From the NCBI GenBank assembly GCA_027451225.1, contig DAIDJU010000108.1, positions 1 through 33,355 on the forward strand: DNA of 33,355 bases. The letters run 5' to 3'. The stretch comes from Acidocella sp. GTDB taxonomy: Bacteria > Pseudomonadota > Alphaproteobacteria > Acetobacterales > Acetobacteraceae. Below, in pieces: positions 17,675 through 21,156 of the stretch; position 1 is the stretch's first letter, and each line of letters opens with the position of its first letter. The notes below the pieces were generated by a model. It did no database searches and was not told where the DNA came from. It saw only the letters and a program-made list of their open reading frames with translations. The position numbers were made by a program, and so were the translations under genes.

Positions 17675-18103
17675 CTACGCGGCGCTCTTCTCGGTTTCTT
17701 CGTGAACCGAGATCTTGGTGCGTTTGGCGGCGCTGACCGGCCTTTCCTCGGCCCCGGCGGCACCGTCACCATTCAGCAGTTTCCCTGCCTCGGTAAAGCT
17801 GGTCCGGAGTTCGTCGTTGATCTCGTGAATCACGGAGACGAACTTGTTCATCTCCTCCGCCCAATGATGACTTGCATTACCGGGTTCGACCCAGCCACCA
17901 TTGAACAGCCCGAGCCGGCTAAATATGCACTCCTGACCGTAGCGCAGTTCCAGCCGCGCCGTGGCGGCCACGCCCTGCATTACCCTCTCCTGCGCGCGCA
18001 GTACACGCAGGGTCCGCTCGCGCCAGCCGTCCATCAGTCCTTCTGTATTGAACGCGGCGATCCCTTGCTCGAAACCATATTGTGAAACTTGACGCTGTTG
18101 CAT
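17675..18103 (-). CDS. Small phasin-like protein of unknown function
   Basis: A 142-residue soluble protein, mostly amphipathic helix over 20-115 (WRERTLRVLRAQERVMQGVAATARLELRYGQ, then HHWAEEMNKFVSVIHEINDELRTSFTEAG), with a charged, disordered tail rich in A, E and K. Size, helix pattern and the motif-poor composition resemble phasin-family proteins that coat polyhydroxyalkanoate granules, but I see no decisive motif and no PHA gene nearby. The ATG at 18103 has GGGGGAA seven bases upstream. The promoter region contains a TATACT box and a 14-bp palindrome. A structural role on granules or membranes is inference; the gene may equally be an orphan. Confidence 0.6.
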   Translation of the reverse strand: MQQRQVSQYGFEQGIAAFNTEGLMDGWRERTLRVLRAQERVMQGVAATARLELRYGQECIFSRLGLFNGGWVEPGNASHHWAEEMNKFVSVIHEINDELRTSFTEAGKLLNGDGAAGAEERPVSAAKRTKISVHEETEKSAA

Positions 18104-18303: not shown

Positions 18304-18999
18304 ATGACCGCTGCCCCACTCCACTTCCGTGATGAACGATTGATGCTGGACCCCACGGGGGCGGCTTTCTGGCCGAAGAAGCGCGTCCTCATCGTCGCGG
18401 ACCCGTATTTTGAGAAATATCAGGGTGTTGCCGCCCGTTCTGGTTTATCGTCCGCCCAGGATGCCAAGGCGGTGATCGAGCGGCTGAACCGGCTGGTGCG
18501 GCTATACCGTCCAACCAGGGTGATTGTGCTTGGCCAGTCCGTGCAGGAGCGCGATGGCACGCTGCGTTTGGCCAAGGATGATCGGGCGCGCATCGAAGCC
18601 ATGGCGCGCGAGGCACAGTTTATCTGGATAACGAACGAGGCGGACAGCGCCTCCCATACCCTGCCGGGGCAGTGCTTGCCCCTGCACCGCGAAGGGCCGT
18701 TCACCTTCCGCCACCAGGCCGCCCCTAAGCTCGCCCCGCGCGAGATCGAGATTTCCGGCTATTTCTCGCCCAAGGCGAGCATCGACGCGCGCGGCAAGCG
18801 CGTCTCCCGCCCCTGCTTCGTGGCCGACGCCCAACGCCTGATACTGCCCGCCTTCGGCAGCCTCTCGGGCAATATGGATGTACGCGAACCCACGATCTCC
18901 CGTTTGTTTCCGCGAAGCCTGCGCGTGTTTCTGCTGGGGCAGGACCAACTCTTCTCCTTCGCCCTGGAACAGCTTGGCCGCATGGCCGAGGTGGCATGA
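18304..18999 (+). CDS. PdeM-family phosphoesterase homologue with lost metal ligands
   Basis: A 231-residue protein matching PdeM (ligase-associated DNA damage response endonuclease) over its full length: LMLDPTGAAFWP start, LIVADPYFEK, RVIVLGQS, FIWIT, FTFRH, EISGYFSPKA, RPCFVAD and LILPAFGSLSGNMDVREP. Active members carry a metallophosphoesterase site: DxH, GDSxxD, GNHD, and GHxHPK. Here DLH is D33-P-Y35, LGDS is LGQ78S, GNHD is TN111EAD, and GHxH is GYFS (Y153, S155). Only D33, N111 and H137 of the likely ligands remain, so catalysis is improbable. It lies at the head of a two- or three-gene plus-strand unit, overlapping photolyase by four bases. I see no lhr-type helicase or ligase partner in the window. 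The ATG at 18304 has no clear ribosome-binding site. Confidence 0.78.
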   Translation: MTAAPLHFRDERLMLDPTGAAFWPKKRVLIVADPYFEKYQGVAARSGLSSAQDAKAVIERLNRLVRLYRPTRVIVLGQSVQERDGTLRLAKDDRARIEAMAREAQFIWITNEADSASHTLPGQCLPLHREGPFTFRHQAAPKLAPREIEISGYFSPKASIDARGKRVSRPCFVADAQRLILPAFGSLSGNMDVREPTISRLFPRSLRVFLLGQDQLFSFALEQLGRMAEVA

Positions 19000-20399
19000 A
19001 CGCCAGCCTCGTCTGGTTCCGCAACGACCTGCGCCTTGCGGACAACCCCGCCCTCCATGCCGCCTGCGCGGCAGGGGGCAAGGTGGCGCTGCTTTATATC
19101 CTCGATGAGCGCGCGGGTGCTGCCAGCCGCTGGTGGCTGCACCACTCCCTGGCGGCGCTGGGGCGGGATATCGCGGCGCGGGGTGGTCATCTGCTGCTGC
19201 GCCGGGGCGATCCGGTGGAGATCATCCCGAAATTAGCTGCCGAACTGGGCGTGCGCGAAATCCATGCCGCCCGGGCTTACGAGCCCTTCTGGCGTGTAAC
19301 CGACCGCGCTTTGGACGCCACGCTGAAAGCCCAGGGCGTTGCGCTGTACCGCCATCTCTCCACCTCGCTCTTCGCGCCGGAGAAGATCAGCACCAAGGCG
19401 GGCGGGGCGTATGGCGTGTTCACGCCCTTCTCCAAAGCCTGCTTCGCCGCCGGGGTGCCTGATATTTTTCTCCCCGCGCCCGAAGGCATCAACGGGATCA
19501 AAGCCACCTCAGATACGCTGGAGGACTGGCGTCTCCTGCCCAGCAAACCCGATTGGGCGGGCGGGATGCGCGAAGAATGGACACCCGGCGAGGCCAGCGC
19601 CCATGCGCGGCTGGACGAGTTCCTCGATGGCCCGATCCAGCGCTACGCCGAGGCGCGGGACCTGCCCGACAAACCCGGCACGGCGAAGATTTCCCCGCAC
19701 GCGCATTTCGGCGAAATCTCACCGCGCTACGTGTGGCACCGCGCCGCCGCGAGCGGCCATGGCAATGGCGTGCAGACCTTCCTGAAAGAGCTGCTCTGGC
19801 GCGAGTTCTCCATCCACCTGCTCTGGCAGCACCAGAACATCCGCACCGCCCCCATCCGCACCGAATTCGCCCGCTTCCCCTGGGCGGATGCGCCTTCCGC
19901 CCTGCGCGCCTGGCAGCGCGGGCAAACGGGCATTCCCATCGTGGATGCCGGGATGCGCGAGCTGTGGCGTACAGGCTGGATGCATAACCGCGTGCGGATG
20001 ATCTGCGCCTCCTTCCTGGTAAAGCACCTGCTCATCCCCTGGCAGAAGGGCGAAACTTGGTTCTGGGATACGCTGGTGGACGCCGACGAAGCCGCCAATG
20101 GCGCCTCCTGGCAATGGGTGGCAGGCTGCGGGGCCGATGCCGCGCCCTATTTCCGCATTTTCAACCCCGTACTCCAGGGGCGGAAATTCGACCCCGACGG
20201 CGCTTACATCCGCCGCTACGTGCCGGAACTGGCGAAGCTCCCCGCCGCCTGCATCCATGCGCCATGGGAGGCTGACACCGCCATCCTCGCCCATGCCGGA
20301 GTGCGGCTGGGGCGTAATTATCCGCCTCCCATCATGGGGCTGGCCGAGGGGCGCGAGCGCGCTTTGGCCGCCTATGCGTCCACCAAGGGCGGAGAATAA
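18996..20399 (+). CDS. phr: Deoxyribodipyrimidine photolyase (class I CPD type)
   Basis: A 467-residue FAD-dependent photolyase that splits UV-induced pyrimidine dimers using blue light. The N-terminal antenna domain starts SLVWFRNDLRLADNPAL. The FAD-binding helical domain contains PGTAKISPHAHFGEISPR, LLWREFSIHLLW, GIPIVDAGMRELWRTGWMHNR, DADEAANGASWQWVAG and APYFRIFNP; tryptophans of the electron-transfer chain lie in these blocks. Length is normal. The ATG overlaps the pdeM-like stop by four bases (ATGA), so the two are translationally coupled. Class I photolyase is favoured over cryptochrome or (6-4) enzymes by overall motif match. Confidence 0.95.
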   Translation: MNASLVWFRNDLRLADNPALHAACAAGGKVALLYILDERAGAASRWWLHHSLAALGRDIAARGGHLLLRRGDPVEIIPKLAAELGVREIHAARAYEPFWRVTDRALDATLKAQGVALYRHLSTSLFAPEKISTKAGGAYGVFTPFSKACFAAGVPDIFLPAPEGINGIKATSDTLEDWRLLPSKPDWAGGMREEWTPGEASAHARLDEFLDGPIQRYAEARDLPDKPGTAKISPHAHFGEISPRYVWHRAAASGHGNGVQTFLKELLWREFSIHLLWQHQNIRTAPIRTEFARFPWADAPSALRAWQRGQTGIPIVDAGMRELWRTGWMHNRVRMICASFLVKHLLIPWQKGETWFWDTLVDADEAANGASWQWVAGCGADAAPYFRIFNPVLQGRKFDPDGAYIRRYVPELAKLPAACIHAPWEADTAILAHAGVRLGRNYPPPIMGLAEGRERALAAYASTKGGE

Positions 20400-20484: not shown

Positions 20485-21156
20485 ATGATCCCGCCCGATG
20501 CCAGGCTCCGCGTGGTGGGCGATGTTCATGGCGACTCCAAGGCCTTCGCCGCCGCTGCCGAGACGGATCGCTTCATCATCCAACTTGGGGACATGGTGGA
20601 TGACGGGCCGGACACGCCCGGCGCACTGCGCATCCTGTTTCGGCTGCTGGAGGAAAAGCGTGGCCTGCTGATCCTCGGCAATCACGACTTCAAGCTCGCC
20701 CGTGCCCTGCGGGGCGACAATGTGCGCGGCGCGCCTTTGGCCCGCACCCTGGCCGAGCTGCCGTTGAACCTGCGCGAGCGCACGATGGAGACGATCATGG
20801 CCGCCCCGGCCTGGGCGATGCTGGGGGCGAAATTCTTCGTCCACGGTTCCTTCCACCCCGGCATGCTGGATGAGCCGCCCCCTCCCTTTCCACCGGGCCG
20901 CGCCTGCCCGCTCCTGGCCCGCGCGCTCTACGGCCAGACCAGCGGGCGCGTCACCGGCTCAGGCAAGCCCGAGCGGCTGCTGCGCTGGGTGGAGGACATC
21001 CCGCGCGGCATGACCGTGTATGCCGGGCACGACCAGCGCAGCACCGATGGCCGCCCCTATATCCGCACCGCCCGCCATGGCGGCACGGCGGTGTTCATGG
21101 ATACCGGCGCCGGCAAGGGCGGGCATTTATCGTGGCTGGATATAGACCCGGATTAG
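20485..21156 (+). CDS. Calcineurin-like metallophosphoesterase, Pnkp-phosphatase-like
   Basis: A 223-residue phosphoesterase with a complete two-metal site: D13 and H15 (GDVHGD), D36 (GDMVDDG), N66/H67 (GNHD), H120 (VHG) and H182 (GHDQ). The C-terminal half, ALYGQTSGR...GKPERLLRWVEDIPRGMTVYAGHDQ then MDTGAGKGGHLSWLDI, resembles the block YGxTTG-GxPxR-W-x-YGH-x-DTG-GG-L found in the phosphatase domain of bacterial Pnkp, which removes 3'-phosphates and 2',3'-cyclic phosphates from nucleic acid ends. A kinase or ligase domain is absent. It follows photolyase in the same direction after 85 bases and overlaps the convergent MBL gene by four bases. It could alternatively be a protein phosphatase of the PP1/2A-like bacterial group. 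Confidence 0.82.
   Translation: MIPPDARLRVVGDVHGDSKAFAAAAETDRFIIQLGDMVDDGPDTPGALRILFRLLEEKRGLLILGNHDFKLARALRGDNVRGAPLARTLAELPLNLRERTMETIMAAPAWAMLGAKFFVHGSFHPGMLDEPPPPFPPGRACPLLARALYGQTSGRVTGSGKPERLLRWVEDIPRGMTVYAGHDQRSTDGRPYIRTARHGGTAVFMDTGAGKGGHLSWLDIDPD

Follow-up and report, generated by a model that had tools for sequence, protein, structure and literature searches.

Repeated and graded disarming of PdeM in Acidocella species without its repair cluster

The window, i.e., the whole stretch of 33,355 nucleotides analysed, comes from an Acidocella sp. genome (G000; 2.6 Mb, 200 contigs) and encodes a disarmed protein of the PdeM/MPE family («pseudo-PdeM»). It is one case of a larger pattern: PdeM is disarmed repeatedly, and to different degrees, in species of the acid-loving genus Acidocella that do not have its repair cluster. 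With catalytic residues lost and the fold under purifying selection, the window protein reads best as a pseudoenzyme of the metallophosphoesterase superfamily. Judging from the sequences compared, the usual two-metal nuclease site is probably gone and the protein kept, most likely for a second, non-nuclease function, since the active-site loops eroded while the fold and both termini stayed under selection.

Family, fold and metal site of the window protein

The frame starts with ATG, stops with TGA and codes for 231 residues. The original prediction stated that the sequence aligns with PdeM throughout, and the profile search agrees: TIGR04123 (PdeM, NCBIfam; a hypoth_equivalog profile) matches with E 1.1e-42 over profile positions 2-205 of 207, i.e., nearly full length. 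The score is 145.9 bits (145.6 in the genome search), just under the curated cut-off of 150 bits. A Pfam search with E up to 1 gave no match. The top PDB sequence matches are 6nvo/6nvp, P. putida nuclease MPE (E about 2e-12). An AF2 model (53 aligned rows) has a mean pLDDT of 83.1 and a pTM of 0.84, and pLDDT <50 is confined to residues 38-51, 82-86 and 227-231. With this model, Foldseek ranks first 6nvp (E 3.1e-15, TM 0.69), followed by 6nvo and E. coli YfcE; LpxH, polymerase B-subunits and Mre11 come later (E >1e-3). In the PdeM tree, the window protein is nested among intact PdeM. The ORF descends from PdeM/MPE and keeps the MPE fold. Its nearest relative is the A. aromatica copy (G034/L069; 85% identity). 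A search of its own genome with TIGR04123 returned a single match, i.e., no second PdeM copy, and a replacement paralogue was rejected on that ground.

Table 1. Features of the window (positions within the window)
Feature	Position	Strand	Basis
topA to pseudo-PdeM interval; place of ligase, exonuclease and Lhr (about 5 kb) in intact L071, L073, L075	17669..18303	.	synteny
Promoter-like element CATRGY-N12-AATATGCTYKT, 9 nt 5' of start codon	18266..18294	+	conservation; putative function
pseudo-PdeM (disarmed PdeM/MPE-family protein, 231 aa)	18304..18999	+	ORF and translation, TIGR04123, 6nvo/6nvp by sequence and fold
Former DxH motif: D33 kept, H35 -> Y	18400..18408	+	alignment, ligand table
Former Asp of GDx: D78 -> Q	18535..18537	+	ligand table
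Former GNHD motif: N-E-A-D, residues 111-114	18634..18645	+	alignment; placing uncertain by one residue
Ligand H137 of FRH motif, retained	18712..18714	+	kept in 30/31 Acidocella copies
Former GHxH motif: H153 -> Y, H155 -> S	18760..18768	+	ligand table
Residues 200-231, most conserved of compared segments in disarmed copies	18901..18996	+	entropy, omega, tail alignment
phr, deoxyribodipyrimidine photolyase	18996..20399	+	Pfam PF03441 E 4.1e-87, PF00875 E 1e-48; adjacency in relatives

When the seven metal ligands (D, H, D, N, H, H, H) are counted, five are replaced in the window copy (H35Y, D78Q, N112E, H153Y, H155S) and two, D33 and H137, are kept. The replacement of four motifs, as first proposed, is recovered: DxH is D33-P-Y35, GDS is GQS, GNHD is changed and GHxH is G-Y153-F-S155. 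The accompanying claim that the metal-binding site is lost holds for five of the seven ligands and had overlooked D33 and F-R-H137. In the light of these two residues, some ligand binding may persist in disarmed copies, at a residual or altered site. Retained enzymatic activity is nevertheless unlikely, whether through a modified metal site, perhaps with one metal, or through a phosphate site, formed by D33 and H137 with the nearby conserved R136, E149, R169 and C171. D33 is found in 31/31 Acidocella copies and H137 in 30/31, and D33, R136, E149, R169 and C171 are invariant across the 53 aligned rows, intact ones included; but the replacements at the five lost positions vary by lineage without any new consensus, unlike a remodelled site, and the loops concerned are of low confidence in the AF2 model. 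Moreover, in the usual arrangement D33 and H137 are ligands of different metal sites, with D78 as the bridging ligand, and this counts against such a site.

Ligand loss and repair-cluster partners in Acidocella

The PdeM gene is present in 31/38 Acidocella genomes, a match of E 7e-4 in G030 being left out of the 31 real copies. No real copy was found in the other seven (G003, G008, G010, G015, G030, G035, G036; completeness 77-96%), i.e., PdeM is dispensable. The 31 copies are distributed as follows: (i) 12 have 7/7 ligands and GNHD; (ii) 17 have lost 3-5 ligands; (iii) two are early-stage, i.e., G025, where the D of GNHD is lost together with one ligand, and G029, where that D alone is lost and every ligand kept. 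Among named species, A. aromatica and A. aquatica are disarmed, A. facilis and A. aminolytica intact. The original prediction had named, as the opposite case, a recent decay with dN/dS near 1 and intact sites in sister strains only; the nearest relative, A. aromatica, has itself lost three ligands, as have, by three to five, more than half of the copies.

Elsewhere the site is very stable: all 32 tabulated copies from other genera have 7/7 ligands (L065-L067 were left out of this table, L065 being a degraded copy, the same as L141). A scan of genome contigs outside the genus gives 38/39 copies with 7/7 ligands, with L127 as exception; these 39 partly repeat genomes of the 32. Among 395 genomes of the family, 266 have PdeM and 253 are over the cut-off. 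Since 11 of the 13 below it are Acidocella, disarming on such a scale is a feature of Acidocella. The other two below the cut-off (G184, G285) are incomplete copies: G184 is truncated and G285 incomplete at the frame end. In G448, D33 is replaced by H and the C-terminus is odd. The ligase search gave no match in G448, G184 and G285. Degraded PdeM was also seen outside Acidocella in L137 (G132; L127 is apparently the same contig) and L141 (G078, which belongs to another family), and the cluster ligase gave no match in either genome. A second, distant PdeM with intact site lies on a 3.9 kb contig of G029 (L062, G029:C325) and may be a contamination.

The distribution of the partner genes follows that of the site. 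The Lhr-Core helicase (TIGR04121) and the ligase (TIGR04120) are over cut-off in 12/12 genomes with intact site and in 0/19 others, and the exonuclease (TIGR04122) in 11/12 and 0/19, respectively, the contig of the missing one (G023) ending inside lhr (the Fisher test run on these counts ignores relatedness). In the window's own genome, TIGR04120 and TIGR04122 at E 1e-30 gave no match, and TIGR04121 gave only weak helicase matches (best 68.7 bits vs. a cut-off of 850). The window protein thus has neither the complete set of ligands of PdeM nor its genomic association with an ATP-dependent ligase, an exonuclease and the Lhr-Core helicase. An Lhr-like helicase under the TIGR04121 cut-off of 850 occurs in G012 (440 bits) and G029 (236 bits), both disarmed or early. 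G030 has the partners and no real PdeM match; in G006, intact PdeM and lhr are on different contigs. Adjacency of Lhr-Core and MPE in bacteria is given as 276/319 genomes in PMC8301817, and is also documented in PMC7437997.

The gene order in L071 and L075 is topA, phasin-looking ORF, ligase and exonuclease (other strand), lhr, PdeM, phr; L073 is similar without the phasin-looking ORF. In the window and in A. aromatica it is topA, phasin-looking ORF, PdeM, phr. In L077 (G025), L086, L087 and L090, PdeM begins about 250-280 nt after the topA match ends. Where visible, topA-lig-exo-lhr-PdeM-phr is thus reduced to topA-PdeM-phr; other disarmed species have other upstream genes. The small ORF that looks like a phasin by appearance (17675-18103, minus strand) stands alone between topA and pseudo-PdeM, and is found in several, not all, relatives.

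The number of losses was estimated on a photolyase tree (27 Acidocella rows and 4 outgroups), with «altered site» comprising 16 disarmed copies, G025 and G029. This label needs 5 changes, at least 4 of them on well-supported branches, and a single clade of all 18 altered rows is rejected (p-AU 0.0002). Site and partner traits agree in every row of the tree, and 4/4 independent pairs go in the same direction, four pairs being too few to reach p 0.05 and G025 and G029 being counted as altered though early-stage. In the PdeM tree, G017/G027 and G025 are nested among intact copies. The active site was lost several times within Acidocella, always where the partner repair genes are also gone; alternatively to repeated loss, intact operons may have returned horizontally.

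Partner loss seems to precede ligand loss because G025 and G029 have no partner over cut-off yet keep 6 and 7 of 7 ligands, both being incomplete drafts (81 and 85% completeness; the G025 locus is shortened and the G029 contig starts inside PdeM). At E 1e-40, the ligase was not found in 29 of the 266 PdeM-bearing genomes of the family, i.e., 11 Acidocella and 18 others (out of 250 PdeM-bearing non-Acidocella genomes). As 16 of these 18 are still over the PdeM cut-off, either the loss of partners need not disarm the site or draft gaps hide the ligase. The sites viewed in 3 of the 16 are intact in G057 and damaged in G132 and G448. In six genomes of the family, the ligase is present and PdeM absent.

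Photolyase neighbour and constraint on the disarmed copies

PdeM and phr adjoin in many genera of the family, and phr is also found without PdeM. The ATG of phr overlaps the pseudo-PdeM stop codon (ATGA) in the window and in several disarmed copies; other disarmed copies have a spacer ahead of phr (L018, L021-L025, L027), and the protein is conserved there too. Most Acidocella copies shown, intact and disarmed, have a motif CATRGY-N8-14-AATATGCT (or CTGTGCTC) about 10 nt 5' of the PdeM start. Its strict form matches once in each of 6/8 genomes, always at the PdeM-phr locus, and a regulon was rejected on that basis; in G011 and G007 the strict form was not found, the elements of these two genomes departing from it. 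A looser form gives 53 matches in the loci searched, of which those printed (loci after L068 and the window) each precede PdeM or phr. The reversed looser pattern gives 0 matches, a result of small weight, the loci being mostly chosen around PdeM-phr. In L071, L073 and L075 the lhr ORF carries the motif in its 3' end. The position of the motif suggests a near-leaderless transcript: PdeM and phr probably form a unit that PdeM opens and that has a promoter of its own, with a very short leader. Among the three PdeM-less genomes examined, the motif stands directly before phr in G036 and G010 and was not found before phr in G035.

The entropy of 17 disarmed and 11 intact copies was compared by segment. 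In disarmed copies the mean entropy is up by 0.86-1.57 bits in segments 31-40, 41-55, 76-88, 111-118, 151-158 and 186-199, and by 0.28 bits in segment 119-135; the gain is <0.1 bits or none in segments 1-30, 56-75, 89-110, 136-150, 159-185 and 200-231. The ligand motifs sit in relaxed segments (31-40, 76-88, 111-118, 151-158), that of H137 not being relaxed, and segments 41-55 and 186-199 would also face the active site. Columns at most 4 residues from a ligand gain more entropy than others (p 0.0026), and invariant columns stay invariant in 10/28 cases near ligands vs. 48/81 elsewhere (p 0.047). Deletions with reference to the window copy concern residues 43-53, 80-85 and 113-117 (the contig-cut start of L027 aside); in the alignment, insertions around 41-52, 111 and 187 fall in the same or neighbouring relaxed loops.

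The C-terminal part behaves differently. Residues 200-231 have an entropy of 0.17 bits in disarmed copies, and the last 32 codons an omega of 0.025 vs. 0.030 in 9 intact copies. A tail formed by the last ~12 residues is present in 28/31 Acidocella copies, intact and disarmed (absent in G019, G028, G031), and was found in none of the other-genus rows shown in the alignment. Because residues 200-231 are constrained alike and the tail is common to intact and disarmed copies, its function seems older than the loss of the site. Conservation of these codons as a ribosome-binding site of phr was rejected, the residues being conserved with varying codons, also without overlap with phr. A beta-clamp-like reading of the conserved QxQLFSF was dropped (predicted strand 216-220, weak match to the beta-clamp motif).

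An MGK+F3X4 fit gives an omega of 0.136 over 15 disarmed copies, taken from the main lineages, and of 0.079 over 9 intact copies. In 14 disarmed genomes it is 0.138 for pseudo-PdeM vs. 0.137 for the adjoining photolyase; in 8 intact genomes it is 0.078 for PdeM vs. 0.140 for photolyase. The constraint on PdeM has thus dropped from unusually strict to ordinary, not to zero. NG86 omega is 0.085-0.216 in nine pairs with both members disarmed, and omega is 0.127 and 0.106 within clades whose members are all disarmed. None of the 17 disarmed frames contains an internal stop (that of L027 being cut at its start by the contig end). In a neutral simulation, which scores stops only, the frame stays open in 730, 94 and 14 of 4000 runs at 0.1, 0.25 and 0.5 substitutions/site, respectively. 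A recent decay, i.e., a fresh pseudogene, is ruled out by the omega values and the open frames, and the view that the protein is a pseudoenzyme under selection, put forward at the outset, is upheld.

These values also bear on the possibility that the ORF is kept solely as a translated leader bringing ribosomes to phr, the protein itself being irrelevant. The ATGA overlap, and the promoter-like motif close to the PdeM ATG with its short leader, would suit such a role. However, it is the amino acids that are conserved, and not mere openness of the frame (omega 0.136 for the gene, and much lower for its last 32 codons), and they are so also in the copies with a spacer before phr. Moreover, since phr stands directly behind the motif without PdeM in G036 and G010, the ORF is not required merely to place phr behind the motif; a pure leader is improbable. 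Slow decay, with selection relaxed after cluster loss and the rest of the protein lagging, would fit the seemingly earlier partner loss (G025 and G029, drafts of 81 and 85%) and the absence of the whole gene in other species, but it is very improbable, being refuted for the genus overall by an omega equal to that of the working neighbour, also in all-disarmed clades, by 17/17 stop-free frames and by a C-terminus as constrained as in intact copies, though it could hold for single genomes.

Probable second function and comparison with known systems

The preferred and probable reading, that of a pseudoenzyme selected for a second function, is laid out as follows: (i) in several Acidocella lineages, PdeM no longer has the ligase, exonuclease and Lhr-Core genes at its side; (ii) it is still ahead of the photolyase gene, behind the promoter-like element; (iii) the active-site loops, relieved of nuclease duty, would have eroded independently; (iv) selection continues on the fold, on the first 30 residues and on the last 32. 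Homology, ligand loss, selection, repeated co-loss with the partners and synteny are direct results here, and the lack of nuclease activity, the succession of events, the promoter, the operon and a binding partner are inferred. The second function would already exist in the intact enzyme, and would most plausibly be protein-protein or DNA binding in the photoreactivation or DNA-repair setting of the putative operon partner, with photolyase, DNA or the protein itself as candidates to be bound; the original prediction had offered a DNA-binding or scaffolding role as an inference. Tentatively, this nuclease-independent role could reside in the invariant scaffold together with the C-terminal tail specific to the genus, the protein being perhaps a binding partner or regulator of photolyase, and could alone have kept the gene through at least 4 independent cluster losses.

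Acidocella offers a natural experiment, i.e., one protein with or without its active site and with or without its partners, in close species and repeatedly, and the comparison separates nuclease residues from residues serving another role. To our knowledge, little is established about what the widespread PdeM-Lhr-ligase-exonuclease cluster does. If the preferred reading is true, this would be a traceable bacterial example of a DNA-repair nuclease becoming a non-catalytic protein. If the protein is in addition a photolyase partner, it would be the first non-catalytic accessory protein for photolyase, and a bacterial counterpart to the passage from phosphoesterase proofreader to polymerase B-subunit scaffold.

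VPS29 of retromer is a scaffold with a metallophosphoesterase fold; it likewise uses this fold as a binding platform, but in eukaryotic membrane traffic, an unrelated context. The closest known system is PdeM/MPE itself. P. putida MPE (6NVO/6NVP) is a Mn-dependent ssDNA endonuclease of the Lhr-Core repair cluster. The window protein resembles it in full-length sequence and in fold, but differs by the replacement of 5/7 ligands, by its place next to a photolyase and by cluster partners not found over cut-off. No report of an inactive PdeM was found among open-licence PMC papers searched by title or abstract opening.

Eukaryotic replicative polymerase B-subunits contain a calcineurin-like domain with inactivated nuclease motifs and a proposed scaffold role, and archaeal PolD DP1, an active relative, shares with PdeM the ligand series D,H,D,N,H,H,H (PMC4996933). 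They are of the same superfamily, and their nuclease motifs are inactivated as in pseudo-PdeM; in contrast, pseudo-PdeM has no OB domain or known polymerase partner, is bacterial and shows repeated loss in one genus. The fold matches to B-subunits (6v8p, 7kc0, 4y97) are weak (E >1e-3, TM <=0.34), near the noise level (KaiC).

A second metallophosphoesterase is encoded at 20485-21156 (Pfam PF00149, E 3.6e-7), 3' of phr. A role as a substitute specific to disarmed genomes was rejected, the gene being also 3' of phr in intact species such as L071 and L074; many Acidocella loci of both kinds, with intact or disarmed PdeM, have it close to phr.
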